Shown here piece by piece: positions 27,689 to 62,669 of a DNA stretch of 64,000 nt. The notes below the pieces were generated by a model. It saw only the letters and a list, made by a program, of their open reading frames with translations. It was not told the DNA's origin and did no database searches. The stretch comes from an uncultured Acetatifactor sp. (GTDB lineage Bacteria > Bacillota > Clostridia > Lachnospirales > Lachnospiraceae). Position 1 is the stretch's first letter. Each line of letters starts with the position of its first letter. A program made the position numbers and the translations under genes. Location: the NCBI GenBank assembly GCA_949840885.1, contig CATKYJ010000004.1, positions 62,001 through 126,000 on the forward strand, read 5' to 3'.

Positions 27689-28777
27689 TCACTCCATACG
27701 TCCCGCAGTGTCGGCCTGGATCTGTTGGCTGTATTCTTTCACGCTGTCCGAAACCGTGTAGTCCCTGTCCTCAAACAGGAACTGGTGCAGCCATACCACA
27801 TTGGACTGCAGATCCGTGGGGATAACGCAGGAACCCTTGGCTCCCATGCGGGCGCTTCCGCGCATGTCAGGCTGGGGGAATCCCTCCTCCTCCACAATCC
27901 GGTAATTCGTGATATTCCCCAGCAAGTCCAGAATGTCCTTGGAGTCAAGGCTGGTGTAGATATCATCGATGCAGTCATTGAATACCTTTGTCAATGTGGC
28001 AATATCCGTCTCCTTTGCCCGCTTCTCAATGGCCTTTATGACTTCCCGCTGGCGCGCCGTGCGCTGGAAGTCATCGCCCCTGGTCTGGCGGATACGGCAG
28101 TAGGAGGCAGCCTGCACGCCGTTGAGCAGCTGATATCCCGTCTCCGTCACAGGCGTGTACTGGCACTGCAGCACTTTGGACACGTCTATCTGATAATTGT
28201 TGATATGCTTCAGTTCCTCGCTGTCCACGTCCACATACACGCCGCCCAGTCCGTCGATAACTTCGCTTAAGCCCTTATAGCCCACGGCCACGAAATTGGT
28301 GATGTCCATATCCAGATTCATGTTCAGCATCTTCACCGCCTGCTCCGCCCCACCGTAGGAGTAGGCTGCATTGCACTTGTTATACTCGTCCGTGCCGATA
28401 TTCAGATAAGTGTCACGATATACGCTGACCAGTTTGATGTCCCCTGTGTCCATATTGATGCTGGCGATCATGGTGCTGTCGCTGCGGCTGTCCTTGAACA
28501 GCTGGGCGTCCGTCTGGGCGTCCACGCCAAACAGGGCAATGTTCATATAGCCATGCATGACACCACCCTCTTCTTTCATCTCCTGCACCTGGGAGGGGAT
28601 CGCCAGTTCCTCCTCATTTAAGCTTGCCATCTTTGGCCCCTCTGTGGTCTTATTCATCACCAGGTACAGCACTGCCACCATCACCAGGATAATGATGATC
28701 TCAAACAGGAACAGGATCATCTTCCTCCTCTGTCTTGCCGCCCTCGCTTTTGCGCTCTTTCTTCCTCCCGTAGCCAT
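27689..28777 (-). CDS. LytR-CpsA-Psr (LCP) family protein
   Basis: N-terminal TM, IALFGVDAQTD, DSRSDSTMIASIN, LVSVYRDTYL, NAAYSYGGAEQAV, ADFQRTARQREV-like motif (DDFQRTARQREV). Confidence 0.92.
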   Translation of the reverse strand: MATGGRKSAKARAARQRRKMILFLFEIIIILVMVAVLYLVMNKTTEGPKMASLNEEELAIPSQVQEMKEEGGVMHGYMNIALFGVDAQTDAQLFKDSRSDSTMIASINMDTGDIKLVSVYRDTYLNIGTDEYNKCNAAYSYGGAEQAVKMLNMNLDMDITNFVAVGYKGLSEVIDGLGGVYVDVDSEELKHINNYQIDVSKVLQCQYTPVTETGYQLLNGVQAASYCRIRQTRGDDFQRTARQREVIKAIEKRAKETDIATLTKVFNDCIDDIYTSLDSKDILDLLGNITNYRIVEEEGFPQPDMRGSARMGAKGSCVIPTDLQSNVVWLHQFLFEDRDYTVSDSVKEYSQQIQADTAGRME

Positions 28778-28792
28778 AAAACCGTCTCCTTA

Positions 28793-30208
28793 TCAGTAAG
28801 CATTTTTATTAATGAAGCCTGTAAAAAAGGTCATAACGATGATTTTCAGGTCAAACCATATGGTCCAGTTTTCAATGTAATAGATATCGTACTCAATCCG
28901 CTTGCGGATAGAGGTGTCCCCCCGCAGGCCGTTCACCTGGGCCCAGCCGGTGAGCCCGGGCCTTACCTGGTGCTTTACCATATATCTGGGAATCTCCTCC
29001 TTGAACTTCTCCACAAACAGCGGCCTCTCCGGCCTTGGCCCCACCAGGCTCATGTCCCCCCGCAGAATGTTGAATAGCTGGGGAAGCTCGTCTAAGCTGG
29101 TGCGCCGCAGAAATTTCCCAAGGGGCGTGACCCTGGGGTCGCCCCGCACCGTCCATGCCTTTTTTTCCTCCCCCGGAGGCTGTACTTCCATGCTGCGGAA
29201 CTTGTACATGGAAAAGGGCTTATTGTGGAGCCCCACCCGCTCCTGCCTGAAGATCACGGGCCCCGGGCTGGTAAGCTTGATCAGAAGCACCGTCACCAGC
29301 ATAATGGGGGACGTGACCACAATGCCAAACAGCGCCCCTGCCACATCCATGAGCCGCTTTATGAAGATGTTTCCCGTATTGGTCAGGGGCACATACCGGA
29401 TATTGATCACCGGCAGCCCGGACAGATCCTCCGTATAGGGTTTGCTTGGTATTAAGCTGTTGTAGTCCGGGATGAATTTCGTGTGCACTCCATATTTCTC
29501 GCAGATGGCCACGATGCTCTCCAGATGCTCGTAATCTTTCAGGGGCAGGGAAATGGCGATCTCATCCAGCTTGTTCTCCGGCAGGATAACCTCCAGGTTC
29601 CCAAGCCTCCCCAGCACCTTGACCCCTTTGTAAAGCGTCCCCGCCGGTATATGATTGTCCAGAATCCCGCAGACCACATAGCCCCACTGGGGATTGTCGA
29701 AAAGCCTGTCGATATACTCCTCCGCCGCCCGGGAATACCCCACCAGCAGAATATGCTTCAGGTTGTACCCTTTCCTGCGGATGGTCTGCAGCCCCCGGCG
29801 CAGGACCAGGCGAAAAGAGGAAGTGAGCCCCACATTGAAAAAATAAAAAAAGCCTATCACGGAGCGGGAGTAATTGATCTCACGGATAACCATGTACAGA
29901 CCGATGATAAATGTAATGATCCCAATGGTATTCGCCTTGATGATCCCATAGATCTCAAAGCGCCTCCGCACTGTCCGCTTAGGCGCGTATACGCCGCAAA
30001 TGTAATAAATGACTGCATACAAAGGTAATATAAAGAGCAGAAGCCTCATATATTCACTCAGAGGAAGCACACCGATACCCGGCCCGTCATTCAAAACATA
30101 AAATTTGAAAAGATAGGCCAACACAAAAGATGCCGCAGTAATGCCGACATCTATCACTACCATCAATCGGTTGAATACTTTCTGATTATCCTTTATCATA
30201 AGCACCAC
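28793..30208 (-). CDS. Initiating sugar transferase (polyprenyl glycosylphosphotransferase)
   Basis: Multi-TM N-terminus and C-terminal domain with KRLMDVAGALFGIVVTSPIM, MYKFRSM, LRRTSLDELPQLFNILRGDMSLVGPRPERP. Confidence 0.94.
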   Translation of the reverse strand: MVLMIKDNQKVFNRLMVVIDVGITAASFVLAYLFKFYVLNDGPGIGVLPLSEYMRLLLFILPLYAVIYYICGVYAPKRTVRRRFEIYGIIKANTIGIITFIIGLYMVIREINYSRSVIGFFYFFNVGLTSSFRLVLRRGLQTIRRKGYNLKHILLVGYSRAAEEYIDRLFDNPQWGYVVCGILDNHIPAGTLYKGVKVLGRLGNLEVILPENKLDEIAISLPLKDYEHLESIVAICEKYGVHTKFIPDYNSLIPSKPYTEDLSGLPVINIRYVPLTNTGNIFIKRLMDVAGALFGIVVTSPIMLVTVLLIKLTSPGPVIFRQERVGLHNKPFSMYKFRSMEVQPPGEEKKAWTVRGDPRVTPLGKFLRRTSLDELPQLFNILRGDMSLVGPRPERPLFVEKFKEEIPRYMVKHQVRPGLTGWAQVNGLRGDTSIRKRIEYDIYYIENWTIWFDLKIIVMTFFTGFINKNAY

Positions 30209-44618: not shown

Positions 44619-44638
44619 GCCGCCTCTCTCCTCTTTTG

Positions 44639-46096
44639 TCAGAAATTAAAATACAAAAACACGCTTACCTGTGACAGGGAGACAAAAGCCCAGGTAAACA
44701 GAGTCGCCAGGCAAAAGCCCCCTGCCCTTGTATGCCCTTTTGCCCGGATCCATTCTTCCGCTTTCGGTCCGCAAATCAGTCCAATGCCCAACACAGAAAG
44801 CAAAAGGAAGCAGCACAGGAAGAATGCATTCAGCAAGCCAGGAGCCGCCATGCCCAAAAGCCTGACCACCGCATAATTCTCCGGAAAGATCAGAGTATTG
44901 CACACCCCAAGGAGCATCCCCCTGTTTCCCGCCGCAAAGAGCCTGTTCCACAAAAGCCCTGCCGTTTCAAGTGAATCGCTGCGGAAGACGGAAAAGCTCA
45001 GAGTGACAAAGACGGCCGTGGCAAGGCGGTTCATCCAATCCCGGCGAAACCGCGCTTTCGGAAAGGCCGTCTCAAACACCACCGCCAGGCCATGCATGCC
45101 CCCCCACAGCACAAATGTCCAATTGGCTCCGTGCCAGAGCCCGCTGGCCAGAAACACTACAAACAGATTCACGCACTGTCTGGCTTTCCCTTTCCGGTTC
45201 CCTCCCAGGGGAATGTAGACATACTGCGACAGAAAGCGTGACAGCGTCATATGCCATCTGCGCCAGAATTCCCGCACGGAAGCGGCTTTAAAAGGCGAAT
45301 CAAAATTCTCCGGAAGCCGGAAACCGAACATCCCGGCAATGCCCCTTGCCATGTCGCAGTAGCCGCTGAAGTCGAAATACAGTTCCATCATATACCACGT
45401 AATTGTAATCCAAGCAGTGGGCGTATCCAACGCAGCTATGTTCTCATACTCCGCGTTCACCAGGACGGCCAGGGAATCCGCAAGCAGCACCTTTTTGGCC
45501 AGCCCCAAAATGAACAGGGTAAACCCGTCATAAAACCCCTCCGGAGAAAACCGTCTGTTCTCTCTGCGCTGTAGCTGAGGCAGCAGCTCGCTGTGGAGCA
45601 CAATGGGCCCCGCCACCAGCTGCGGAAAGAAGCTGACGAAAAAAGCATAGTCCAAAAGAGAATAATGGGGCGCGTTTCCCCGATACCTTTCTATGACGAA
45701 AGACAGTTGCTGAAAGGTAAAGAAACTGATGCCCAGGGGAAGAGCGATTTTTTCCATCCTGATATCCGTATGTAAAAAGAAGTTGCAGTTATCAAGAAAG
45801 AAATTGAAATACTTGAAGTAAAACAAAAGTCCCAGATTTCCCAGGATACCGCAGGCTGCCAGTGCCCTCCTGCCGGTACAGCGCTTTTCAAGCAGCAGGC
45901 TCACCAGATAATTCCCGGCCAGGCTTGCCAGGAGGATCCAAAGATACTGCAGATTATAATAGCCATAGAACCAAAAGGACATTCCCACCAGAAACAGCTT
46001 CGCAAAAAACGGATTTTCCAGCCTCTGGAGCAGAAACCAGCCCAAAAGCCCCAGAGGCAGAAATACGGCAATAAAGATCACGGAATTAAACAGCAT
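44639..46096 (-). CDS. MBOAT family O-acyltransferase (AlgI/DltB-like)
   Basis: PLGISFFTFQQLSFVIERYRG, REFWRRWHMTLSRFLSQYVYIPLGGNRKG, LWHGANWTFVLWGGMHG. Confidence 0.94.
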   Translation of the reverse strand: MLFNSVIFIAVFLPLGLLGWFLLQRLENPFFAKLFLVGMSFWFYGYYNLQYLWILLASLAGNYLVSLLLEKRCTGRRALAACGILGNLGLLFYFKYFNFFLDNCNFFLHTDIRMEKIALPLGISFFTFQQLSFVIERYRGNAPHYSLLDYAFFVSFFPQLVAGPIVLHSELLPQLQRRENRRFSPEGFYDGFTLFILGLAKKVLLADSLAVLVNAEYENIAALDTPTAWITITWYMMELYFDFSGYCDMARGIAGMFGFRLPENFDSPFKAASVREFWRRWHMTLSRFLSQYVYIPLGGNRKGKARQCVNLFVVFLASGLWHGANWTFVLWGGMHGLAVVFETAFPKARFRRDWMNRLATAVFVTLSFSVFRSDSLETAGLLWNRLFAAGNRGMLLGVCNTLIFPENYAVVRLLGMAAPGLLNAFFLCCFLLLSVLGIGLICGPKAEEWIRAKGHTRAGGFCLATLFTWAFVSLSQVSVFLYFNF

Positions 46097-46120: not shown

Positions 46121-48265
46121 TCACGACCCGACTTTTAACGAAAAGTCGCTTCTGTCCAGAGAAAAATTCGGATTGTAATAAGGGTCTCCTGCCTCCAGTT
46201 CCTTTTTCCACTTTTCCCGGAACCGCTCCGATTCCCGGTTGTACCTCCGGGCCCGTTCCCCGGTGTCGTCCAGGCCCCTGGAGGCGGATTCATAGTGGAA
46301 CAACTCCGCGAAAGGGGTAAATATGTTCAAAAGGCCCATCCTGCGCAGCTTCAGGCAGAAGTCCACATCGTTTAAGGATACCGCAAATCCCTGATCCAGG
46401 CCTCCCGCAGAGAGGTAGAGTTCCCTCTTTACCATAAGGCAGGCCCCTGTCACCGCAGTCACGTCCTGGGCATAACAGAGCCGTCCCATGTATCCCAGAT
46501 TCTGGCGGTGCTGCTTGTAATGGGTGTGCCCTGCCGTCCTGTGGGCTCCCAGGCCGATCACCACGCCGGCATGCTGGATGGTTCTGTCGCCGTAATAGAG
46601 TTTGGCGCCCACTGCGCCTACATCCGCGCGCTGGGCGTACATCAGAAGCTCCTCCATCCAGTTGACGGTGATGACCTCGGTGTCGTTGTTGAGGAGCAGG
46701 ATGTACTCGCCGGTGGCGCAGCTTACGCCCAGGTTGTTGATGGCGGAGTAGTTGAACGCGCCTTTGTAAACGACGATAGCGATTCTGCCGTCCGTGCTGC
46801 GCAGAACCTGCCCTCTGTGCCCCGGCTGTCCTCCCTCCTGCCGCTCCTCTTTCATGCCCTGGCTGTCCTCCCGCTCCCGGCATGCTGCTTTCTGCGCCCC
46901 CTCTGAGTCCCAGGCCTCCTGCCCGCCTTGGCCTCCCTGCGCCTCTCCGTTTACATCATGTCCGTAGTCATATCCCAGCAGCCGGCTGTAATATTCCCTG
47001 ATTTCCTCCGTGGTGCTGTTGTTCTCTACGATTACGATTTCGTAGTTGTCATAGGTGGACTTCTCCCGTATGGAAGAAATACAGCGGCGCAGATCCTCTG
47101 TATGATCCTTGTTGGCGATGACGATGGATATCTTCGGTGTGCCTACGATATTGTAGCGGATGCGGAAGATGGTCTCGAAAGCCCTGGTGCTCTCGATCTT
47201 GAAATGCTCAACCCCGTGCTTCCTCAGATGCTCCGCCACCGCCCCCTTGGCTGCCTGGATGGCATAGGGCTTGGCATCGATGCCTGCTGCCACGCTGCCC
47301 GAATGGCTCCTCCAGTAGTACATGAGCTTGGGCACATGGACGATTCTCTTCGCATTGTCCGTCAGGCGCAGAATCATGTCATGATCCTGGCTGCCGTCGA
47401 ACTTTGTGCGGAACAGTTCCTCCCCATCCAGGAGGTCTCTGGAAAAGACGCTGAAATGGCAGATGTAGTTGTTGGCCCGCAGATTGTCCGGCGCATAGTC
47501 CGGCTTGAAATGCATGGTCAGCATGTGGTTGATGTCATCGCCTTTAAAGGTGGTCTCATCACAGTACAGGTAATCCGCGCTCTGCTCATTGATGGCCTTT
47601 ACATATTCGTAGAGCACGCTGGGATGCAGCACATCGTCCTGGTCAAGGAGGCCGATGTACTGGCCTGTAGCCATCTGCAGGCAGGCATTGGTATTGCCTG
47701 CGATACCGCCGTTCTTTTCCAGACGCCTGTACACGATTCTGCCCCCGGATTTTGCCGCATATTCCCTGGAGATTTCCCCTATATAGGCATGGGCCTCGTC
47801 AGAGCCGTCCGCCAGGCACAGTTCCCAGTTTAGGTAGGTCTGGTTCATAACGGAGTCCAGCATCTGCACCTGGAACCGCCTCTCATTGTTCCACAGGGGA
47901 ACCAGGAGGCTGATCTTCACCATCCGCGGGAATACGGTCTCCCGTTCTGCCGCTGCCTGCTGCGGCGAGGGGAAACTTTCCGTGCCGAAGTGCTTCTTTG
48001 CCTCCTGCTCCCGCTTTTTGTAGCTCAGCTTTTGCAGCACGCCTTTCGGGCCGCCGCAGTTTTTCAGCCTGTCTCTCTGGCGGACGGCCCAGTGCAGCAT
48101 GTTTCGGACAGGCTTGCAAAGCTTCCAGAGCGGATTTTTCTTGATGCGGTTCAGCTTCCACTCCAGTTCCTCATTCTTCGCCTCCAAATCCGCGATCCTG
48201 CCCGCCAGGTCAGCGCATTTGAGATGCTCCCTTTCATAGGCTTCCCTGTAATCTGTCTCTTTCAT
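46121..48265 (-). CDS. Two-domain family 2 glycosyltransferase
   Basis: ISLLVPLWNNERRFQVQMLDSVMNQTYLNWELCLADGSDE, GLLDQDDVLHPS, and second domain ISIVIANKDHTEDLRRCISSI, LLNNDTEV. Confidence 0.92.
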   Translation of the reverse strand: MKETDYREAYEREHLKCADLAGRIADLEAKNEELEWKLNRIKKNPLWKLCKPVRNMLHWAVRQRDRLKNCGGPKGVLQKLSYKKREQEAKKHFGTESFPSPQQAAAERETVFPRMVKISLLVPLWNNERRFQVQMLDSVMNQTYLNWELCLADGSDEAHAYIGEISREYAAKSGGRIVYRRLEKNGGIAGNTNACLQMATGQYIGLLDQDDVLHPSVLYEYVKAINEQSADYLYCDETTFKGDDINHMLTMHFKPDYAPDNLRANNYICHFSVFSRDLLDGEELFRTKFDGSQDHDMILRLTDNAKRIVHVPKLMYYWRSHSGSVAAGIDAKPYAIQAAKGAVAEHLRKHGVEHFKIESTRAFETIFRIRYNIVGTPKISIVIANKDHTEDLRRCISSIREKSTYDNYEIVIVENNSTTEEIREYYSRLLGYDYGHDVNGEAQGGQGGQEAWDSEGAQKAACREREDSQGMKEERQEGGQPGHRGQVLRSTDGRIAIVVYKGAFNYSAINNLGVSCATGEYILLLNNDTEVITVNWMEELLMYAQRADVGAVGAKLYYGDRTIQHAGVVIGLGAHRTAGHTHYKQHRQNLGYMGRLCYAQDVTAVTGACLMVKRELYLSAGGLDQGFAVSLNDVDFCLKLRRMGLLNIFTPFAELFHYESASRGLDDTGERARRYNRESERFREKWKKELEAGDPYYNPNFSLDRSDFSLKVGS

Positions 48266-48398: not shown

Positions 48399-50414
48399 TC
48401 AGCATATATTCATGGTCAAAAAACGATTGCTCCAGTTAAGCAGCTTAAGACCCGTGACCCGGTTGCGGACAGCCATGCCCAGCCGGTATCTTCCATGCAG
48501 GGCCGCTGCCTCTGTCTCCACGTCAAACCCACAGAGAGCCACGTTCCTCTGGTCCGGCATGTTTTCCTCCAGGTCGGGCCGGTACATCCCCTCTAAATTA
48601 ATCGCATATATCCCGGCTTCCGAGCAGGCCGCGTCCTGCTCTTTGGCGCTGGGTTCCTCCCGCAAAAGCAGCATCCTGTCATAGCAGGCATTGTCGTCTC
48701 CCAGCACTACGCCATAGCCAATGGCCCTATGGCCGCGGCAGTCCTCTATGCGCACCATCAGGCAGGCATCCTGGCGGTATTCCTCTATTGCCGCAAAAGC
48801 CGAAACCGCACCTGCCCTCTGCACCGCGTTTCCCGCTGTCACATACGCCGGGCGGATTCCCGTATCCAGCCCCTCCCTGTTCAGAAAAGGGGAATAAAAG
48901 GGATCCACGCCCTCCAGGCCCGGGTGCATCCTATAGAGCCGCTCCCTTTCCTCCAGCAGCCGCTGCAGCTTCTCCTGAGACTCATCGTCTCCCCTGCTCA
49001 GGGATTCATGATGGCAGGCATGCAGATCATTCACGCACACATTATGATATCCGGCTTCATGCAGGCAAAAGCAGAGCCCCACGTCATTAAAGGCCACTTT
49101 AAGCTCCTCCGGGAAGCCTCCCGCCTCCTGAAACTTTTCCCGCGCCACCATCAGACAGGCCGCCGTCACGGCCAGCACATTGCGGTTACCCCGATTTGCC
49201 CCGTAATAAAAGCATCTGTCATCCTGCCGAAACTGCAGCTTGTGCACCGGCCCCATTGGCAGATTCGTGATGCCCGCATGCTGAATGCGGACGGAATCCG
49301 GATAATAAAGCTTCAGGCCTACTGCCCCCGCGGCCTCTCTGACTGCCAGCGCTGCCATCTCGGCCAAGGCGCCCCTCTGGCAAAAAGTCACGTCATCGTT
49401 CAAAAACAGCAAAAGCCGCCCTTTTGCCTGGGCAGCGCCCAGATTGCACATTTGGGAGAAATTGAATTCCATGGGCCTGTAAAGATACCGGATCCGGCAG
49501 TTGTCCTTTTCCGGGTCCCACAGTCTGCTTGCCATGTCCTCCACACGTTTCCTGTTCTCTTCCCTGCTGCCATTGTCCACCACAAGGATCTCAAATGCAA
49601 GGGAAGAACGAAAATCCTGTCTGGCCACATCCAGAAAGCTCTCCACGCAGGCCTCCAGTACATCCGGATGGTCTTTGGAGGGTATGACTACAGACAGATA
49701 GGGGACATCTTTTTCCCCTGCCGCCAGAATCCCTGCAAGGGCCTGCAGCCTCTCCTCATGCAGGCTCTCATGAAAGGGGGATGGCCGGAAGAATTTCTCC
49801 TGCTCCTTTGCACTTCCCGCATGGAACAGGATTCTCTGTACATGTCCCACGCAGGCCACCCCTTTTTTGTATCCTCCTGCCAGGTCTATACAGGCACGGA
49901 CTGCCTTTTCATAGGCTTCGAAGTCCGTCACCTCATAGAATGCGGGGGATTGTGAAATGCCAAATTTCTCCGGTCTTAACTCCGCCTCTTCCAGCAGCCC
50001 CCTCTCTATGGCCACCACACTGCCGAAATAGAAAAAGCTGTCCAGAAAATCCGGGGACCAGTCCGGCTTGTACCAGGGAAGCTTCCTGTCCGCCAGGCTT
50101 TCGTCCCCCTCCCCGCCGCTCTCCCACACGTCTTCATCCCCATACAGGATGCGTACCCCCGGGTTTCTGGCAAAATAAGCCGCCATCGCCTCCCGGGCTC
50201 CCGCTGCCATTCTCCCTTTTCCTATCCGAAACACTGCAAAATCAGGGCAGGTTCCTTTTTCCCCTGTTTCCTGCCCGGTCTCCTGCGCGGCCGCCCATTC
50301 CCCATAGGCAGTCTGCCTGCCTTGCAGCCGTTTCTCATAGCGCATATCCTCTCTTTTTACCAGCGTCCGCTTTACCAGCTCTTTGATGCCCAATCCGCCA
50401 CCGCTTCCTTTCAC
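48399..50414 (-). CDS. Family 2 glycosyltransferase
   Basis: LSVVIPSKDHPDVLEACVESFL, VVDNGSREENRKRVEDM, LLFLNDDVTFCQ. Confidence 0.9.
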   Translation of the reverse strand: MKGSGGGLGIKELVKRTLVKREDMRYEKRLQGRQTAYGEWAAAQETGQETGEKGTCPDFAVFRIGKGRMAAGAREAMAAYFARNPGVRILYGDEDVWESGGEGDESLADRKLPWYKPDWSPDFLDSFFYFGSVVAIERGLLEEAELRPEKFGISQSPAFYEVTDFEAYEKAVRACIDLAGGYKKGVACVGHVQRILFHAGSAKEQEKFFRPSPFHESLHEERLQALAGILAAGEKDVPYLSVVIPSKDHPDVLEACVESFLDVARQDFRSSLAFEILVVDNGSREENRKRVEDMASRLWDPEKDNCRIRYLYRPMEFNFSQMCNLGAAQAKGRLLLFLNDDVTFCQRGALAEMAALAVREAAGAVGLKLYYPDSVRIQHAGITNLPMGPVHKLQFRQDDRCFYYGANRGNRNVLAVTAACLMVAREKFQEAGGFPEELKVAFNDVGLCFCLHEAGYHNVCVNDLHACHHESLSRGDDESQEKLQRLLEERERLYRMHPGLEGVDPFYSPFLNREGLDTGIRPAYVTAGNAVQRAGAVSAFAAIEEYRQDACLMVRIEDCRGHRAIGYGVVLGDDNACYDRMLLLREEPSAKEQDAACSEAGIYAINLEGMYRPDLEENMPDQRNVALCGFDVETEAAALHGRYRLGMAVRNRVTGLKLLNWSNRFLTMNIC

Positions 50415-52561
50415 CGGCCCCCGGCCACATCCTCCGCCATGGAAAGCGGCAGGCCCACGATCTCCATCCGTATCCGCAGTATGTTTTCCTCCTGGCGGGG
50501 AAGCCTTTCCAGGCGGATATGCATGCCCGGATCCTCTGTGGGAAACACGATGCTGGGGCAGTTTCCCGCTGCTCTGCGCGCCGGGAACCGGACAAGGCCA
50601 TTTGCGCCAAAGACGCTCCTTTTGCCCAGGGGAACCGCCTTTCCGTTCAGGGTCACCTCCTGCAGCTTTACGATGCAGGAGCCAAAAGCCGGATCCACCC
50701 GCACCTGCTTCACCTCAGCGTCCACCTTCAGGTTTACCTCTATCAGATTTTCGCCCTGATAGGCGTCCTTTACAAAATAAGATCCCTCCTCGCTAAATCC
50801 GCTGCCCCTGTCCTCGTAAATCTGGACACGGTTCCTTAATGAAGAATCCTCATATCTGTCGATCCAGTCCCGGGGCGATGTGATTTTTCCCCCGATTCTG
50901 TCCCGAAGTTCCTGCATGGCAAGCCGGTCTCCGGTGACAAAACGCTGGAACTGCACCTCCGCGCTGCGGTACCCCTCCGCCTCCTGTTCCGTGACGGAAA
51001 GTTCCCTCTGGATCCGTTTCAAATCCAGGCTCTCCCGTTTCCCGTCCTCCAGCAGATAGCAGTAGACAGCCCGAAACGCAAGTTCTTTGGTTTCAATGGG
51101 CTTTCCAAAGGTCCATTCGTAGTCGATCAGCGTCCATCTGTCCCCGTCCACCAGAATATTGGAAAAGACCGGATCGAAGTCAGCAGCCGGGTAGTCGCAG
51201 TTGTATCCGATGCGCTCCACATATTCCCGAAAATATCCGTAAAACGCCTCAATATCGCCTTTCTCCAGGCACCCGTCCATGAGTTCGGAAAGGGGCACGC
51301 CCTCCTCAAAGGCAAATCGCACGCTCTTACCCTCTTCCTCCGGATAACAGTCGTTGATCTCCAGGCGGCCTCCCTGATACCTGTCCTTGAGCCTCTCGCA
51401 GGATACCTCCATACCCCGGACATGCGCCCTGGCCGCTTCGTTCAGAGCGCATTTCCTCACAAAGGCCTGCCCCCGGTCGTCTGTGGCGATCTCTGTCCGG
51501 ATTGCGTATTCCGGCGCCCGGTCGTTGGAATATCTTACATATTTGACGTCAAAGCCCTCTCCGAGCACCGCCAGATAGGAATTGGAAAACAGGGGGAAGA
51601 GCCCCTCCTCCGACAAGCCGTCAAAAGCGCTCTTCTCATCGAACAGCAGCATTCTGTCCCTGTCGAAATTCCGTATATTGTCAGTCAGTTCTCCCTTTCC
51701 CGGCAGATACTCGTCGCTGTAGAGCATCTTCATGAATTTATAGTCCGGATAGGGGTAATAGAAATGATACTCGCCCACACCGCAGTTTTGGAAAATACGC
51801 TCCAGCCCGTTTCTGCCAAAGGTGCGCGCCCCCTCGTCCTGCCTGTAGTTCTCTATGCCGGAGAAGTAGGTTCCCAGGTGGTCTTCCTTGCAGCCCGCGA
51901 AATATTTCAGGCCGTATTTGTTCTCTATGGCGATGAGGATCCGCCCTCCCTTTGCCAGATGGGGCAGCAGAAGCTTCAGGAAGTCCTCATAGGGCGTATC
52001 TCCCCCCATATAATCCCTTGCGTATTCAAAGACCCCTGTGAGACAGATGAAATCGAAGTCGTTTTCCAGGTCAGGCTCAATGTCCTTAAAATTCCCAACG
52101 CGGATCAGGATATTGCCGCACTCCCTGTGGCGGTAGGCATTGATCAGGCTCCGCTTTTTGGAAAGGTCCACACAGGTCACTGCGGCGGCTTTTGCCGACA
52201 GCACTCCCGTGATTGCACCGCAACCGCTGCCCACCTCCAGCACTTTGGCAGTCTTTCCCGCCGGAAAGGGAACCCATTCCAGGATATTCTCCCGCAGGGG
52301 GGAGAGGTGGTAGAGAATGGGGAAGCTGGCCTTTTGCGCAATGATGTCAGGATACTCCGAGGATATCCTGTGCTTTACGATTTCCAAAAGTTCATCCTCC
52401 ACATCCCCGTCGCTGTAGAGATCCCGGCCGGAATACCGGCTGTAGTCAAGCCTGACTTTTCCGATTTTCTCTGTTTTTATTTCGTTTTGCGCTGATTTTA
52501 TTTCGTTTTCCTCTGTCTTTATTTCGTTTTCCTCTGTCCTGCCGCCTCTTTCCTCTGTCAT
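50411..52561 (-). CDS. Methyltransferase plus kinase-like protein with C-terminal beta-rich domain (WbdD-like architecture)
   Basis: SAM motif AKVLEVGSGCGAITG; kinase/phosphotransferase-like DFDPVFSNILVDGDRWTLIDYEW; adjacent to the Wzt-type gene. Confidence 0.78.
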   Translation of the reverse strand: MTEERGGRTEENEIKTEENEIKSAQNEIKTEKIGKVRLDYSRYSGRDLYSDGDVEDELLEIVKHRISSEYPDIIAQKASFPILYHLSPLRENILEWVPFPAGKTAKVLEVGSGCGAITGVLSAKAAAVTCVDLSKKRSLINAYRHRECGNILIRVGNFKDIEPDLENDFDFICLTGVFEYARDYMGGDTPYEDFLKLLLPHLAKGGRILIAIENKYGLKYFAGCKEDHLGTYFSGIENYRQDEGARTFGRNGLERIFQNCGVGEYHFYYPYPDYKFMKMLYSDEYLPGKGELTDNIRNFDRDRMLLFDEKSAFDGLSEEGLFPLFSNSYLAVLGEGFDVKYVRYSNDRAPEYAIRTEIATDDRGQAFVRKCALNEAARAHVRGMEVSCERLKDRYQGGRLEINDCYPEEEGKSVRFAFEEGVPLSELMDGCLEKGDIEAFYGYFREYVERIGYNCDYPAADFDPVFSNILVDGDRWTLIDYEWTFGKPIETKELAFRAVYCYLLEDGKRESLDLKRIQRELSVTEQEAEGYRSAEVQFQRFVTGDRLAMQELRDRIGGKITSPRDWIDRYEDSSLRNRVQIYEDRGSGFSEEGSYFVKDAYQGENLIEVNLKVDAEVKQVRVDPAFGSCIVKLQEVTLNGKAVPLGKRSVFGANGLVRFPARRAAGNCPSIVFPTEDPGMHIRLERLPRQEENILRIRMEIVGLPLSMAEDVAGGR

Positions 52562-52576
52562 ACCGCTAACCGCTCC

Positions 52577-53935
52577 TCACTGTACGTCCGCTTTAAAGCC
52601 GCTGTTCCTCTCCTCCCCGGAGGCTTCCGTCACCCGAACCACCGAGTCCATATCATAGTATCCCACCGTATTCTTATCTGAAACCACCGTCACGTTTAGG
52701 GCATCGTAGAGCCTGTGATATACCTCAAAGGTATCGCCGCTGTATCCCGTGACTCCCATGGACAACAGGTATTCCCCGCCCTGGAGGCTCATCTTCTGGG
52801 TAAAGGTCACGTCCTTTACCTGCCCCGGCTCTGCGCTTTCCAAGAACGCTTTCTCCACCATGGAATTTGTCCCTGTAATCTCCGTGCCCATGACATTTTT
52901 AAAGGTAAAAGCAAAAATAGGGGCAGGCACATGTTCCTCAAAGGCCACCCGCATATGCAGGGTGAAAAGGCTTCCCTTGATCACGGCAGTGGTGCGGATG
53001 CCCGCATCGTCCGTCAGATAATACTCCACGATCCTTGCCTGGCCGCTGCCATATTCCAGCGCGTCCGGATTGACCCCGCCATTTGGTCCCTGTCCGTCCT
53101 GCTTGACCGCCTCCTGCCGCTTTACCTCCTCCAGGAAATCCACATGCTCCTGATTGCTGTGGATTTCATACTGCCCCACCAGCACCCGCTTGTAAATGTC
53201 TATCATTTCCTTAGGGGTCCCCTCTCCCAAAAGCTCCCCTTTGTTGAGCAGAAACACCCTGTCGCAGTATTTGCTGACGGCGCTTAAGTCATGGCTGACA
53301 AATACGATGGTCTTTCCCATCTTCTTGAATTCTTCGAATTTATGATAGCACTTTGCCTGAAAGAACACGTCCCCCACGGAAAGGGCCTCGTCCACGATGA
53401 GGATCTCCGGCTCGATGTTGATGGCCACCGCAAAGGCAAGGCGCACAAACATACCGCTGGAGTAGGTTTTTACCGGCTGATTCACATACTCTCCGATGTC
53501 CGCGAATTCCAGGATTTCCGGCAGCTTCTCATCGATCTCCCTGTCGGAGAAACCCATCATGGTGCCGTTTAGGTATATATTCTCTATGCCGTTGTACTCC
53601 TGGTTGAATCCGGCTCCCAGCTCCAGCAGGGCGGAAATGCGCCCATTCACCAGTACCTCTCCCGAGGTAGGGTTCAGCACGCCTGTGATTATTTTGAGTA
53701 TGGTGGATTTTCCCGAGCCGTTGGTGCCGATGATGCCCACGGTCTCCCCCCTGCGGATGGAGAGGCTTACGCCGTTTAGGGCATAGTGCAGCTTATAGGA
53801 CTGCTTTTTGCCCAGGCCAAAGGCATCCTTTACCCGGTCCCTGGCCCTGTCGTAGAGCTTATATGCCTTTACTACATCCTTGATTTCTATGGCAGGCAAA
53901 GCTACCTCCTGCACCTTTATCCCCTTGTTTTCCAT
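52577..53935 (-). CDS. Polysaccharide ABC exporter ATPase (Wzt-like) with C-terminal Wzt_C-type domain
   Basis: GTNGSGKSTILKIITG, YSSGMFVRLAFAVA, LIVDEALSVGD; ~200-aa C-terminal extension. Confidence 0.92.
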   Translation of the reverse strand: MENKGIKVQEVALPAIEIKDVVKAYKLYDRARDRVKDAFGLGKKQSYKLHYALNGVSLSIRRGETVGIIGTNGSGKSTILKIITGVLNPTSGEVLVNGRISALLELGAGFNQEYNGIENIYLNGTMMGFSDREIDEKLPEILEFADIGEYVNQPVKTYSSGMFVRLAFAVAINIEPEILIVDEALSVGDVFFQAKCYHKFEEFKKMGKTIVFVSHDLSAVSKYCDRVFLLNKGELLGEGTPKEMIDIYKRVLVGQYEIHSNQEHVDFLEEVKRQEAVKQDGQGPNGGVNPDALEYGSGQARIVEYYLTDDAGIRTTAVIKGSLFTLHMRVAFEEHVPAPIFAFTFKNVMGTEITGTNSMVEKAFLESAEPGQVKDVTFTQKMSLQGGEYLLSMGVTGYSGDTFEVYHRLYDALNVTVVSDKNTVGYYDMDSVVRVTEASGEERNSGFKADVQ

Positions 53936-54074: not shown

Positions 54075-55058
54075 TTAAAGCACATCCGCAAAATGGTTCT
54101 TCAGCCGCTTGAACACCGCCACCCCGATGCCGAACAGCACCACAGTCACGATCCAGAAATACATGGTGGAAAAGAAGTCCTCAAAGAACCATTCCTTTCC
54201 ATAGATGGCGCTGCGGTAGCCGTTCACGATGTACACCAGCGGATTCAGCTTCAGCAACATCACCCATCTCTTCGGCGCGTTGTCCAGGTTCCACAGGATG
54301 GGCGTGGCCCATATGCCGATCTGCAGCAGAATATTGATGATCTGGGTCAGATCCTTGAAGAAGACCACGATGGAACAGGTGGTATAGCACAGCGCCAGCA
54401 CAAAGATGAACAGGCAGATGCTGTAGTAGAGAATCTGCGTGGTATAGATCGTAGGGTAATAACCATAAAGGGCCGCCACAATAAACAGCACCGCCACAAA
54501 GAACACATGGATGAACGTGGCGGCGATGATCTTGATGATGGGCAGGATGCTGATCTTGAACACCACTTTTTTCACCAGATAATCGTATTCCCGCAGGGCA
54601 TTGGTGCCATTGTTCAGTGCTTCGTTGAAATAGAACCAGGGCACCAGGCCAGCCGTCAAAAACAACACAAAGGGCACATCCTCCACCCCGCGCCCTGCCC
54701 CGCCCATGAGTTTGTCGAATACGATGTAGTACATGGCCACGGTCACCACGGGCTGGGCCAAAGCCCAAAGCGCCCCCATGTAGGAGCCGGCATAGCGCTT
54801 CTTAAAGTCATTCTTTGCCAGCTTCCAGATCAGGTGCCTGCTCTGATACAGTTCCACCGGAATGGTGGTGAATTTCTCGTACCATCTGGCAAAGACCAGG
54901 CAGGCGATGAGGATCACTGCACAGGAGATGACCTTTTTGAGCAGCTCCTCCTTTGGATCCGCGGCAGGTCCTAAATTCTGATGGGTGATGATGATCAGAG
55001 CCATCAAAAACCCTGCCAGGGAAAACAGTAAAATCCCGCCTTTTTTACTTATTTTCAT
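54075..55058 (-). CDS. Polysaccharide ABC exporter permease (Wzm-like) with N-terminal extension
   Basis: ABC-2 permease pattern KNDFKKRYAGSYMGALWALAQPVVTVAMYYIVF, preceded by extra hydrophobic segments. Confidence 0.9.
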   Translation of the reverse strand: MKISKKGGILLFSLAGFLMALIIITHQNLGPAADPKEELLKKVISCAVILIACLVFARWYEKFTTIPVELYQSRHLIWKLAKNDFKKRYAGSYMGALWALAQPVVTVAMYYIVFDKLMGGAGRGVEDVPFVLFLTAGLVPWFYFNEALNNGTNALREYDYLVKKVVFKISILPIIKIIAATFIHVFFVAVLFIVAALYGYYPTIYTTQILYYSICLFIFVLALCYTTCSIVVFFKDLTQIINILLQIGIWATPILWNLDNAPKRWVMLLKLNPLVYIVNGYRSAIYGKEWFFEDFFSTMYFWIVTVVLFGIGVAVFKRLKNHFADVL

Positions 55059-55614
55059 GCATCTGCCTCTTATAGTCCTCCAGGCCGCCCCAGCTGCGGT
55101 CCCTGTCGATCATCACAAGCTCCATCCCCTCCGGAATGGGCCATTCTATGCCGATGGCCGGGTCATTGTAGGCAATGCCGCCCTCGTCCCCGGGATGATA
55201 AAAATCGGTACATTTATAACAGAATTCCGCATAGTCCGAGAGCACCAGATACCCGTGGGCGAAATGCTTTGGCACAAAGAACTGTTTCTTGTTCTCCTCG
55301 GACAGCAGGACGCCGTACCACTTGCCAAAGGTAGGGGATCCCTCCCTGAGATCCACCGCCACATCGAACACCTCCCCGCGGATGGCCCGCACCAGCTTGT
55401 CCTGAGCGAACTGCTTCTGGAAGTGCAGGCCTCTTAATACCCCCCGCCTGCCGGAGGACTGGTTGTCCTGCACGAACTCCTGGGGGATCCCCGCCTCCTT
55501 GTACGCCTGGTAATGATAGGATTCGTAAAAATAGCCCCTCTCATCCCCGAACACTGTGGGCGTGATGACTTTCAGCCCCTCTATCCCGCATGTCTCTACC
55601 TGAATCTTTCCCAT
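55045..55614 (-). CDS. rmlC: dTDP-4-dehydrorhamnose 3,5-epimerase
   Basis: GYFYESYHYQAYKEAGI, FVQDNQSSGRRGVLRGLHFQ. Confidence 0.94.
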   Translation of the reverse strand: MGKIQVETCGIEGLKVITPTVFGDERGYFYESYHYQAYKEAGIPQEFVQDNQSSGRRGVLRGLHFQKQFAQDKLVRAIRGEVFDVAVDLREGSPTFGKWYGVLLSEENKKQFFVPKHFAHGYLVLSDYAEFCYKCTDFYHPGDEGGIAYNDPAIGIEWPIPEGMELVMIDRDRSWGGLEDYKRQMHENK

Positions 55615-55736: not shown

Positions 55737-57026
55737 TCACTGCGCCAGGTAGCTGACGTTCATGTCCACGTTCCCCTCAATGCCGTCCACTGCCCCTTTG
55801 GAGGTATACTGCCACATATGGTAATACCCCTGGTACAGCGGGGCGCTACGGTACTCTGCCAGCCAGATACAGTAATTCTCAAGCTTGCTTGTGTGCAGGT
55901 TGTTATTGTACCAGTTGCGGCTGGCGTAGACTCCTGCAGTGTAGCCCGCGTTGGCAATGGTGCGGCAGAAAGCCTCGCACACCAATGTCCTAGTCTCCAC
56001 GTCCAGATTGTCTGCCCGGCCGTTCCCCCCTGCGCCCTCGGTATCGATGAACACCGGATATTTCAGGTCATACTCTTTGATCAGCTGCAGCACTGCGGAG
56101 GCCTCCTCCACGGCTTCCACCTCGTTCACCGCCTGGGTAAAGAAATAGACCCCCACCGGCATTCCGCTGGCGGCAGCGCCCCGCATGTTGGCTGCAAAGC
56201 AGGCATCCTCCACCAGGCTCCCTGTAGTGGAACCCCGGTATCCCGCACGGATGATGGCGAACTCCACGCCTGCGTTCTTTACCCTGTCCCAGTCAATGCT
56301 GCCGTTCCATTTGGACACGTCAATGCCCACCCGGGAATTGGCGGTGGTCTTCTGAAGTTTCTGGATTTCCGTCCTATCCGCGTCCGCCACAGCGTCCGCC
56401 ACAGCAGTGTCCTCCTCTGCTACATTGATGTCGTCCTCAGTCAAAAGCAGCAGGGAGATGTCCTCGATGGCCACATACTCAACCTTGTCCTTGACCCGCA
56501 CTCTGGTCTCGTTTGCCGGCACCCGGTATCCCTCCATGGGCATCAGCTCCACATAATACTCCCCGGCCGCCAGGTCTCCGATATAGATGATGCCGTCCTT
56601 GTCCAGATCCTTATATTCTCCCAGCCCCTCCAGCTTTACGAAAAAACTCTCCCCGGTGACCAGCTCTCCCTGATTGTCCATAATCTGGATCCGCAGATCC
56701 TTTTCCACGGAAGTCACTACCATGGACAGCCTGGATGCATTGTCCTTTGCCGCCTCCAATATGGGATTTACCTCGGGGTCAAAAAAGGCCTCGTCCTTTA
56801 AGAACGCGGATAAATCATTTCCGATCTGTCCGTTTACCACGCCATTGTCTCCCGGATTCTCCCTGCTGCCCTGGGGCTCTTGCGTGCTTTCCGGGTAAGG
56901 CCCCGGCGTCCCCGCGGGCGGCTCGCCCCCTCCCAGTCCCTGGTTGGAGTACAGCACCAGCAGCGACACCAGCAGGATTATTCCCAAGGAGGCCAGAATG
57001 GCCTTTCTGCGCAGTTTAGAGTCCAT
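55737..57026 (-). CDS. Membrane-anchored GH25 lysozyme with SpaA/prealbumin-like domain
   Basis: N-terminal [43 protein letters not shown] catalytic region. Confidence 0.92.
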
Positions 57027-57885
57027 TTGCTACCTCTACCAGATATTTTCCATAGTTTGTCTTCATCAGGGGCTCGGCCAGGGAAAGGAGCTGCTCCTTG
57101 TGGATGAAGCCTCTCTTGTAGGCAATCTCCTCGATACAGGAGATGTAAAGTCCCTGCCTCTTCTGGAAAGCCGCCACGAAATCCGCCGCATCTAAGAGCG
57201 AATCGTGATTCCCGGTATCCAGCCACGCGAAGCCCCTCCCCAGAGGCTCCACCATAAGCGTCCCCCGGCGCAGGTATTCATTGTTGACGCTGGTGATCTC
57301 CAGTTCCCCCCTGGCGGAAGGCTTTACCGCCCGGGCTATCTCCACTACATCATTGTCGTAAAAGTACAGGCCGGGCACCGCATAGTTGCTTTTGGGATTC
57401 TCCGGCTTCTCCTCAATGGAGAGCACTTTTCCGCTTTCATCGAACTCCACCACCCCGTATTCCCTGGGGTCCCGGACATAGTACCCAAAGATGGTGGCTC
57501 CCTTTTCCCTGGACGCCGCTTCTTTCAGCACCCTGGAAAAGCTCTGTCCGTAGAAGATATTGTCCCCCAGCACCAGGGCCACTCTGTCGCCGCCTATGAA
57601 ATCCGCCCCGATGAGAAAGCTTTCCGCCAGGCCGTTAGGATGTTCCTGCACCGCGTAGGACAGCTCCATGCCAAGCTGATGGCCGTCCCCCAAAAGCTCC
57701 TCGAACACAGGCAGGTCTCTGGGGGTGGAGATGATCAGGATCTCCCGGATGCCTGCCAGCATCAGCGTGGACATGGGATAATAGATCATGGGCTTGTCGT
57801 ACACCGGCATGATTTGTTTGGAAACTGCTTTTGTCAGGGGATACAGTCTGGTGCCGGATCCCCCCGCCAATATGATTCCTTTCAT
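57016..57885 (-). CDS. rmlA: Glucose-1-phosphate thymidylyltransferase
   Basis: [46 protein letters not shown]. Confidence 0.96.
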
Positions 57886-57995: not shown

Positions 57996-59078
57996 CTACT
58001 TTTCGTACATATCAGTATAATATTTCTGATAGTCGCCGCTTGTCACATTTTTCATCCAGTCCTCATTCTGGAAGAACCACTCTATGGTCTTTCTGATGCC
58101 CTCTTTGAACATGGTCTCCGGATACCACCCGATCTGAGCCTTGATCTTGTCCGGCGCAATGGCGTATCTGCGGTCATGGCCTTTTCGATCCTCCACATAG
58201 GTGATCAGATCCGTGGTCACATGCGCCTTTCTGGGGTCATCGTCCGCAAGCATCTCCTGCAGGGTCTCTATGATGATATGGATGATCTCTATGTTGCGCT
58301 TCTCGTTGTGGCCGCCTATGTTGTAAGTCTGAAACAGCTCTCCCTGTTCCTGAACCATGTCTATGGCCTTGGCGTGGTCTTCCACATAGAGCCAGTCCCT
58401 GACATTCTTTCCGTCTCCGTACACGGGAAGCTTCTTTCCCTGGAGACAGTTGTTGATGATCAAAGGAATCAGCTTTTCCGGGAACTGGTAGGGGCCGTAG
58501 TTGTTGGAGCAGTTGGTGATGTTGGCCGGGAAGCGGTATGTGTCCATGTAGGACTTCACCAGCATGTCCGCCCCGGCCTTGCTGGCGGAATAAGGGCTGT
58601 GGGGAGCGTAGGGCGTGGTCTCATAGAAGAACGCCTCGTCATCATCCGGCAGAGAACCGTACACCTCGTCCGTGGACACATGCAGGAACTTCTTGCCCTG
58701 CCTGAACGTGCCGTCCGGCAGCTCCCAGGCCGCCTTGGCACAGTTGAGCATGACCGCAGTGCCCAGCACATTGGTCCGCACGAACACCTCCGGATTGCGG
58801 ATGCTCCTGTCCACATGGCTCTCCGCCGCAAAGTGAACCACACGGTCTATGTCGTTCTCGGCGAATATCCGGGAGATGGCCTCCTTGTCGCAGATATCCG
58901 CTTTCACGAAAGTGTAGTTCGGATTGCCCTCCAGGCTTTTGAGATTCTCCAGATTGCCTGCGTAGGTCAAGGCGTCCACATTGATGATGCGGATGTCGCT
59001 GCCGTATTTCCGGAACATGTAATGGATATAATTGGAGCCGATGAATCCGGCGCCTCCTGTCACAAGATAAGTGCGCAT
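57996..59078 (-). CDS. rmlB: dTDP-glucose 4,6-dehydratase
   Basis: [43 protein letters not shown]; start at 59078. Confidence 0.96.
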
Positions 59079-59130
59079 TTTTCTCTCCTTCCTGTAAGTG
59101 AATCTGGTATTAGTATGGCCTGTTTCCCGC

Positions 59131-62100
59131 TTAATAGCCAAGGTAGCTGATATTCATGTCCACATTGCCGACTATGCCGTTTACGCTGCCGGTGGATCTG
59201 TACTGCCACAGGTCGTATCTGCTGGCATAAGTGGGAGCCGCGGCGTACTGGGCCATCCATATTTTGTAGGCGCTAAGGGCGCTTACGTCCATCTTGGTCT
59301 CCAGCCAGTTTTTGTTGGAGTAGACGCCTGCGGTATAGCCCGCATTCTGGATGGTCTGGCAGAATGCCTTGCAGACCGCCGTCCTGGTCTGGTTGTCGAT
59401 CTTATCTCCACGGCCGCCGCTGGACTCCACGTCCAGGAACACGGGATATGAGATCTTGTAGTTCCGGATCTGATCCAGCACCATGGAGGCTTCCTCCACG
59501 GCCTCGATCTCGTCAACGGCCTGGGAGTAGAAGTACACGCCCACTTTCAGCCCGGCGGCATTGGCGCCCTGGATGTTCTCCGCGAATCTGGGATCCACGA
59601 TCAGCTTCCCCTCTGTGGAACCTCTGTAGCCGCAGCGTATAATCACATAGGAGATGCCGGAATTCTTCACGCCGTTCCAGTCGATCTTGCCGTTCCATTT
59701 AGACACATCTATGCCTACGGTGCCGCTGCCCACCACCATGGAGCCGTCGCTGGCAAAATTGTACTTTGCCCCCTGGATGACCTGCTCCCCGGTGACTTTC
59801 TTACCCTCTGCCGTATAGTAGTATACCTTTCCGTCAATGGTCTGCCAGCCGGTGTATGTAGCGTCCGATTTCACATAGAAAGCAGATGCCGTGTAATAGT
59901 CGGCGTTTGTGGCCTCCCTGTATTCATTGTTCTCCAGCACATAGATCTGCTGTCCCTTTACATCCTTTAAGAGCGTTCCTGTATCCTCTTTGGGATTCTT
60001 TCTTACCGTCACGGCGCAGGTGGCGGTAACGGTCTCCATCCCCTCGGTATAGCTTATGGTAATCACGGCGCTGCCCTCTGCCACGCCGGTGACAGTGACC
60101 ACATTGCCATTTGCGCTGACCGCAGCCTTTCCCGCGTCCGAGGTGGTCGCCACCACCTGCACCGGCTGCAGCGCATTGATCACTGTAGCGGTAATGTTTA
60201 CCGGATTCTGGGCGTATATGGTTATGGCGTTTTTGTCCAGGCGGATGTCCATGCTGTCCTTTATGGTCACCACTATCACGGCTGAACCTGCGGTCTCGGG
60301 CTTCCCGTCCTTATAGTTGGCCGTCACGATGAGATTGGCCGTACCTACAGCCTTGCCCTGTATCGTGATGTCGCCTGTGGTCTGATTTATGGTCGCCGTT
60401 GCCACTGCCGCATTGTCCGAACTGATGATGAACTCCACTGTGCTGCCCTGAGGGAAGCCTGTGACGGCAGCGATAGCCGCCATTGTCCCTCCCACGCTTC
60501 CTGTCATGGCGTTCTGGTTCACTGTCACGCTTAAGGGGCCCGGGGTGGGAGTCGGGGTCGGGGTCTCTGTCGGAGGCGGCGTTGGTGTCTCCGTCGGAGG
60601 CGGCGTTGGCGTCTCCGTTGGAGGCGGTGTTGGCGTCTCCGTCGGAGGCGGTGTTGGCGTCTCTGTCGGAGGCGGCGTTGGCGTCTCTGTCGGAGGTGGC
60701 GTTGGCTGTTCCGTTGCCGGCGGCGTAGTGGCAGGCGTATCCGTAGGCGGTGCCTCGGTTGTCGGCTGCGTGGCATCTGGTGTATCTGTTGACGGCCCGG
60801 TTGATGGCTGGACGGCATCCGTTGGAGCCGACGTGCCCGCTTCCCTTTCAGCTCCTGTGCTTTCAGTTCTCGCCTGGTTCTCCACCGGCAATACGGCCCC
60901 AGCCGCATTCTCCGCCTCCGATGACGAAGCCGTCATGCCGGCTTCCGGCGTTCCGCTCACATTCCCGGTCACCTGCAAAAAGCGCCTCCCCAGCGCCAGC
61001 GTCAGGGGATCCTGGATAGTGCTCTTCTCCACCTGCTCGTACGCCGTGGCAATGACCTTGCTTTCCACCCAGGCCACCGTGTCCTGCAGGCTGGACTCCA
61101 CCACCACCTCATTCTTCTTGGTGTCCTCTTTCTTGGTGTTGACCTCGCTCTCCTGCTTGACTTCATTGGCCACGTCCACTTTCTTGTAGACGATTTCTTT
61201 CTTCACCTCCACGGACTGGCTGTCCAGTGAGAGGGTATAGCCCGCATACTTGGCATCCGTCAGGGACTCCATGGCCACCTTATAGGTGCCGGGCGCAATG
61301 TCCTTTTTGTAGATGATTCCATCCATGTCGTCATCCGACCAGATGACGGTCTTGCCGTCCGGATCCGTCACGGTGACGGAAAAAGGCACGTTCGGCACCA
61401 GTTTGTCCGTCTTCTTGTTGACGAACTTGATCTTCAGGTCTTTTTGAATAGAAGTAAAGCTGGGCAGCACGGACACCTGCCTCTCATAGCCGCTCTCCTC
61501 GTAGCCCGGCTTCTGCGTGGGCTCGGGCTCCTGCTGCTCCTGATCTATGACAGTGGACGCTGCCTGTTTTTCCCTCTGGGCATCCGCCACGGCCATAAGC
61601 CCTTTCTCGCCGATCATGGTGATGCCGTCCAGCTGCTTCCCCACATTTTTGAAGTCGTCCACCTGCTTTTCCATGGTTCTTGATCCGATGAATACGCAGG
61701 CCGTCAACACCGCCAGCACCAGGACTCCCGCGCCGGTAAACGCCATGATCTTATCCATGGTGTCCATTTTGCCAAAGGCCTTTCCGATTTTGGCAAGAAG
61801 CCCCTGTTTGGGCTGCTTTTTTCCTCTGCTCCCGCTTCCCCTTAAAGGACGTTCCATGTAAGGAGACGCTTTTCCCTCTTCCTCGCAGTAAGGCTCCTCC
61901 ATGTCATATTCATCGGAGAATTCCTCCTCATACAACGCCTCCCCCGCTTCGTATGCCTCTTCCGGCCCGTCAGGCCCATAGCCGTCCCCAGGGTCATAGT
62001 ATTCCTCTCCGTATGGTGCTCTTGCTTTCCCGGCAGCACCATAATCCTCTTCTTCGTAATAATACGCGTCTTCTTCCGCGGCATCCTCTGTATAATACGC

Positions 62101-62469: not shown

Positions 62470-62669
62470 CAATAACATCCTCTCCAAACCCAGAAAACGT
62501 AATAAGTCTGTAACAGTATAGCATCCTTTCCATGCTTCTTCAAGTAACAATCCCATTTCTTCATAATTTCTTAAAATCTGTTAAAAAGTTTTAAAGTAAA
62601 GTAAATAATATAGACTTTCCACTCCCATAATAGTACAATAAAAGGCAAATCAGGAAATGGAGCATCTCT

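Follow-up and report, generated by a model that had tools for sequence, protein, structure and literature searches.

How might a Gram-positive gut bacterium mark a polysaccharide chain as finished before exporting it? The question is raised by a gene in a 64,000-nucleotide (nt) stretch of DNA, here called the window, from an uncultured Acetatifactor sp. of the Lachnospiraceae (GenBank assembly GCA_949840885.1, contig CATKYJ010000004.1, forward-strand positions 62,001 to 126,000). An initial annotation, made from the sequence alone, described the gene product as a methyltransferase-kinase resembling WbdD of Escherichia coli O9a, which would cap chains exported by the neighbouring ATP-binding cassette (ABC) transporter. 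We refer to the protein as MTK. We consider it probable that MTK terminates the chains of a glycan exported by this transporter type, that it is of the type of Klebsiella pneumoniae O7 ORF6-N, and that it sets a methylphosphate cap read by the C-terminal domain of Wzt.

Domains and active sites of MTK

The open reading frame (ORF) at 50411-52561 stands as annotated, and the N-terminal part of its product is confirmed as an S-adenosylmethionine (SAM) methyltransferase: the motif VLEVGSGCGAITG occupies residues 107-119, and several Pfam methyltransferase models match MTK, three of them above their cut-offs. Pfam kinase models gave no match to MTK, and the kinase-like character of the second domain is seen in its predicted fold. 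An AlphaFold model of the full-length protein, made from an alignment of 74 homologues, reached a predicted local distance difference test score (pLDDT) of 89.0, and a model of the kinase and C-terminal domains with the methyltransferase omitted reached 91.6. In Foldseek searches with the full-length model, three WbdD entries rank first (4AZS, E 3.8e-10), and the top match spans 512 alignment columns, beyond what the methyltransferase domain alone would fill. With the kinase fragment, the best matches are the kinases RIO2, PRPK and RIO1; APH(2'')-IIa ranks further down.

The motifs DxxxxN and IDYEW, on which the kinase assignment had been based, are real and conserved. K370, N468, D480, E482 and W483 are kept in 58 of 58 diverse homologues, and D463 is kept in 57, with one homologue (L109) departing at the catalytic Asp. 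Since five of these residues are invariant and D463 varies once, the pattern argues for an active phosphotransferase. If the kinase-like domain were instead catalytically dead, it could serve as a scaffold that recruits the glycosyltransferases GT2a and GT2b, encoded downstream, to the exporter; its divergent sequence, the missing Pfam match and the departure of single homologues such as L109 at the catalytic Asp would fit such a role. However, every nucleotide- or metal-binding position is invariant or nearly so, and the equivalent O7 domain is active, its D441A mutant being inactive (PMC11231755), so that we regard a dead kinase as very improbable.

Both models place a confident beta-sandwich after the kinase, at about residues 575-705, which was absent from the initial account. 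It aligns with a homologue encoded on a Pseudomonas plasmid (L144), in which R621 and D623 are kept, and through this proxy it is tentatively likened to the carbohydrate-binding module (CBM) of the O7 terminator. Other fold signals were set aside: similarities of the A1 profile to kinases of the JAK family (E about 1e-4) were taken as a generic kinase-fold signal, and a viral fold search with MTK returned generic methyltransferases only. At the start of the gene (window 52459-52557), a 21-nt repeat present four times encodes TEENEIK-like heptads, and the closest MTK relatives have different N-terminal tails in this region.

Comparison with WbdD

The resemblance to WbdD, known from E. coli O9a and K. 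pneumoniae O3, holds at the level of organization. Both proteins carry the methyltransferase before the kinase, both genes adjoin a wzt whose product ends in a carbohydrate-binding domain, both systems have a separate dual-domain polymerase (WbdA there, GT2b here; PMC3482155), and WbdD is the best full-chain fold match of MTK. Membership of the WbdD family, in contrast, was rejected. Direct comparison with the WbdD sequence of E. coli HS gives only a weak match in the methyltransferase, phmmer, hmmsearch and hhalign yield no kinase alignment between the two proteins, and WbdD Arg203 could not be placed in the MTK alignment. The Foldseek TM-scores are low (0.19-0.32) and the root-mean-square deviation is 14.7 A; therefore, the two domains of MTK are not arranged as in WbdD. 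In addition, a heuristic that detects the WbdD coil finds no coiled coil in MTK after residue 560, where the extra CBM-like domain lies, and the C-terminal membrane helix of WbdD is missing as well.

Judged by its sequence, MTK is outside the WbdD family because the kinase similarity is undetected, the phosphate-binding His pair is replaced by Glu-Tyr and the C-terminal coiled coil is missing. If MTK were a genuine homologue of WbdD, equipped with the same kinase type and a coiled-coil ruler, the shared domain order and the top structural match would be explained, but all of these differences would have to be accommodated, including the poor superposition and a CBM-like domain where the coil is expected, and we hold this reading to be scarcely credible.

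Comparison with the O7 terminator

The closest characterised protein to MTK is K. pneumoniae O7 ORF6-N. In this protein, a methyltransferase, a cryptic kinase domain of 223 amino acids (aa), an Ig-like CBM, a coiled coil and two family 2 glycosyltransferase (GT2) modules are arranged in this order (PMC11231755). With a repeat-unit mimic as acceptor, it was shown in vitro to add phosphate and then, in part, a methyl group, which gives a methylphosphate cap (PMC11231755). The SAM-site residues published for it are Y28, Y66, G91, G93, E112 and Y158 (PMC11231755); the Pseudomonas protein L144 has the same letters at all six numbers, and these residues align one-to-one with Y49, Y84, G111, G113, D132 (D for E) and Y180 of MTK. 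The catalytic D441 of O7 is placed by MAFFT on D461 of MTK, whereas the register of the D-x4-N motif gives D463.

The two halves of L144 correspond to two genes of the window. BLASTP aligns its N-terminal half with MTK (27.7% identity over 613 aa, E 1e-43) and its C-terminal half with GT2b (31% over 601 aa, E 8e-93). The simplest reading is that an O7-like chain appears here to be split into MTK and GT2b. MTK thus shares with ORF6 the methyltransferase, a kinase of about 220 aa of the APH or atypical type and the matching SAM site, and its beta-sandwich is probably the counterpart of the Ig-like CBM; both are also tied to wzm-wzt and rhamnose genes and to a polymerase of two GT2 modules. They differ in that the two C-terminal GT2 modules are absent from the MTK chain and encoded separately as GT2b, that the coiled-coil ruler is absent from MTK and a short coil lies on the polymerase instead of the terminator, and that the host is Gram-positive and hence has no lipopolysaccharide.

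O7-like, ABC-dependent glycan clusters are also plasmid-borne, in Citrobacter braakii pF217-3 (L143) and Pseudomonas asturiensis pCC1524 (L144), one of them with rmlABCD beside insertion sequence (IS) elements. The Citrobacter homologue is encoded immediately behind the permease and ATPase of an ABC exporter and has a C-terminal coiled coil; no DNA-level relative of it was found in E. coli genomes.

Partnership with the exporter

The observation that the gene lies directly downstream of a wzt with a C-terminal extension is borne out: the MTK start is 15 nt downstream of the wzt stop, and the extension is a true Wzt_C domain (135.8 bits). Across 435 aa, the C-terminal domain included, the window Wzt shares 36.6% identity with Wzt of E. 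coli O9. The order wzm-wzt-MTK-GT2 is strongly conserved and nearly universal where the flanking DNA suffices; of the 135 methyltransferase ORFs with enough upstream DNA, 121 have wzt upstream, a count in which some loci appear twice. Acetatifactor muris DSM 23669 (L004), a cultured relative, has an MTK with 70% identity to that of the window. Family members are present in about 80 of the 150 Lachnospiraceae genomes sampled. MTK and Wzt_C occur together in 78 of the 150 genomes, MTK alone in 2, Wzt_C alone in 15 and neither in 55 (Fisher p 2e-24, which overstates independence, as the genomes are related). All 77 Wzt_C matches above 130 bits are in MTK-positive genomes, 74 of them within 6 kb of MTK, whereas only 1 of the 32 matches of lower score is near MTK. 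The Wzt C-terminal domain and MTK therefore travel as a matched pair, which fits one partner setting a cap that the other reads. Distances correlate between Wzt_C and the kinase (r 0.72) and equally between Wzm and the kinase (0.70), so that the C-terminal domain is not singled out and the correlation lends weak support only.

An alternative is that MTK modifies the glycan other than as a terminator, decorating repeat units or the primer or adaptor region, with Wzt_C reading something else. The absence of a ruler from MTK would suit such a role, as would the weak correlation between GT2b and MTK distances (r 0.15-0.18, calculated for the GT2b catalytic domains, for which the best matches may be paralogues). 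The adjacency to wzt and the matched Wzt_C subfamily speak against it, as does the function of the O7 homologue. Moreover, the kinase or the methyltransferase-kinase is fused to GT2 modules in the more distant members L145, L146 and L164, the Lachnospiraceae fusions being of kinase-CBM-GT (L097/L145) and methyltransferase-kinase-GT (L146) order; a kinase joined to the polymerase points to involvement in the growth or the termination of the chain. We thus find a decorating enzyme improbable.

A profile search across the phylum matched 228 of 399 genomes, mostly through short matches to the generic SAM-binding core, and only about 12 places outside the close relatives resemble family members (e.g. 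L116, L118-L126). A phylum-wide spread of the MTK family is therefore not claimed. Methyltransferase/kinase family members outside the Lachnospiraceae include L155 (G394) and L132 (G171), both from a single further family of the Bacillota with genomes of 6-7 Mb.

Proposed mechanism

As a terminator of the O7 type, MTK would act on a lipid-linked, probably rhamnose-containing chain that GT2b, together with GT2a, would elongate at the inner membrane face. The kinase would phosphorylate the terminal sugar, the methyltransferase would then methylate that phosphate, and the capped end could no longer be extended. The C-terminal domain of Wzt would recognise the cap, and Wzm/Wzt would export the completed chain; its attachment to peptidoglycan may be the work of a LytR-CpsA-Psr enzyme. 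Of the capping-controlled chain length suggested in the initial annotation, a cap that terminates the chain and is read by Wzt is the best-supported part, whereas the control of length itself is something that we infer.

Several points weigh against this interpretation. In WbdD, His132 and His133 bind phosphate and are needed for phosphate methylation (PMC3482155); they align with Glu179 and Tyr180 of MTK, so that the pair is absent, although it may not be needed in O7-type enzymes. The connection between MTK and O7 is drawn through published residue numbers and proteobacterial proxies. Much of the co-occurrence with Wzt_C could stem from shared descent, with one operon inherited vertically. 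Finally, MTK has no coiled-coil ruler (none after residue 560) by which it might set length.

The Glu-Tyr replacement also bears on the chemistry of the cap. MTK might terminate the chain with something other than methylphosphate, either by methylating a sugar hydroxyl while the kinase adds a separate phosphate, or by one domain alone setting the cap. Simple methyl caps are represented by WsaE (PMC2943079) and Aquifex (PMC9445017), and in part of the family (the distant members L147-L150 and L152) the methyltransferase and the kinase are separate genes. Nevertheless, an O7-type enzyme with matching SAM-site residues makes methylphosphate (PMC11231755) and both active sites are conserved family-wide; a different cap is accordingly unlikely in our view, and methylphosphate is preferred.

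Position of a possible ruler

The coiled-coil heuristic, which was calibrated only on WbdD, finds a coil at the N-terminus of 50 of the 62 GT2b homologues, and the WKLCKPVR motif is present in 48 of the 62. Several more distant family members, e.g. L147, L149, L151, L153 and L155, carry a coiled coil on the terminator chain; in L147, L149 and L153 the kinase is joined to a long coil that ends in WKITKPLR. That the short GT2b coil acts as a ruler is a guess. On this basis, we entertain the tentative, and rather doubtful, idea that a Gram-positive gut family exports a wall glycan by methylphosphate capping with the ruler relocated onto the polymerase instead of the terminator, MTK being free and GT2b having a short coil of nearly constant length (about 38 residues) and an amphipathic anchor. 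Such an arrangement would fix the length of the chain through a geometry unlike that of WbdD or O7. GT2b also has a low-complexity insertion of about 60 aa in its second GT2 module (window about 46780-46970), very variable in length among homologues.

Precedents and significance

The initial annotation considered capping before ABC export uncommon to describe in Gram-positives. As an idea it is known already: the methyltransferase WsaE of Geobacillus stearothermophilus is thought to cap the rhamnan of S-layer glycans exported by Wzm/Wzt (PMC2943079). By description, WsaE resembles the present system in its Gram-positive host and in the linkage of an N-terminal methyltransferase to GT modules, and differs in that it sets a methyl cap only, has no kinase and contributes to an S-layer glycan (PMC2943079). 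In Aquifex aeolicus, the Wzt C-terminal domain likewise reads a modified terminal rhamnose or mannose, but the cap is methyl rather than methylphosphate and the host is Gram-negative (PMC9445017). A paper on Streptococcus mutans polyrhamnose mentions ABC export and no methyl cap. We found no description of a methyltransferase-kinase terminator in Firmicutes in the open-access papers searched, and as far as found this form is undescribed there.

The Lachnospiraceae are abundant gut commensals, and their surface glycans interact with the host. A conserved MTK with a matched Wzt_C leads to a specific prediction of the glycan end group and offers a target for genetics, and it would extend a termination strategy of Gram-negative O antigens to Gram-positive cell walls. 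The natural split and fused forms of methyltransferase, kinase, CBM, coiled coil and GT2 would allow a comparative test of the molecular-ruler model.

Gene order and neighbouring genes

The features of the locus are collected in Table 1. Around MTK, the genes follow one another as rmlB-like, rmlA, a GH25 lysozyme gene, rmlC-like, wzm, wzt, MTK, GT2a and GT2b, and the MTK stop overlaps the GTG start of GT2a (GTGA). An RmlD-like protein is encoded elsewhere in the genome (C23, E 2.7e-44), and therefore dTDP-L-rhamnose synthesis in the source genome is plausible.

Table 1. Window features bearing on the proposed termination and export pathway
Feature	Position	Strand	Basis
MTK, methyltransferase-kinase-CBM protein, 716 aa, proposed chain terminator	50411..52561	-	ORF list, Pfam, model, Foldseek, alignments
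MTK SAM methyltransferase domain, ~residues 30-331	51569..52474	-	Pfam, alignment, residue map, model
MTK kinase-fold domain, ~residues 335-560 (K370, D463, N468, D480)	50882..51559	-	Invariance, model, Foldseek
MTK C-terminal beta-sandwich, ~residues 575-705, likely counterpart of the CBM-like domain in the O7 terminator	50447..50839	-	Models, module hidden Markov model, alignment to Pseudomonas homologue
Wzt, ABC exporter ATPase with C-terminal Wzt_C	52577..53935	-	Pfam ABC_tran 82.7 bits, Wzt_C 135.8 bits
Wzt_C domain (PF14524), Wzt residues 292-428, predicted cap-reading carbohydrate-binding domain	52652..53062	-	Pfam 135.8 bits
Wzm, ABC-2 type permease	54075..55058	-	Pfam ABC2_membrane 60.5 bits
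GT2a, family 2 glycosyltransferase	48399..50414	-	GTG start overlapping the MTK stop
GT2b, dual-GT2 protein, proposed polymerase	46121..48265	-	Homology to C-terminal half of O7-like Pseudomonas protein
Coiled coil (residues 7-44) and WKLCKPVR motif (47-54) at the N-terminus of GT2b, possibly a short ruler and membrane anchor	48104..48247	-	Coiled-coil heuristic
RmlC-like dTDP-4-dehydrorhamnose epimerase	55045..55614	-	ORF; same position in most loci; sequence resemblance
RmlA-like nucleotidyltransferase	57016..57885	-	Pfam NTP_transferase 258.5 bits
RmlB-like dTDP-glucose 4,6-dehydratase	57996..59141	-	ORF, position; sequence resemblance
WbaP-type initiating sugar-phosphate transferase, possible first pathway step	28793..30208	-	Pfam Bac_transf 245 bits
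LytR-CpsA-Psr transferase, possible glycan-peptidoglycan attachment	27689..28777	-	Pfam LytR_cpsA_psr 110 bits

Two GH25 genes accompany the cluster, and both are kept in most related loci. One, at 59131-62556, encodes a lysozyme of 1141 aa that carries acidic repeats resembling EEDAYYTEDAA, a tract of PTETPTPP repeats and a repeat of the choline-binding type; the other, at 55737-57026, sits within the rml-wzm operon. An MBOAT acyltransferase and an adjoining protein without a Pfam match, encoded at 43521-46096 and found in only part of the related loci, suggest acylation of the wall polymer.

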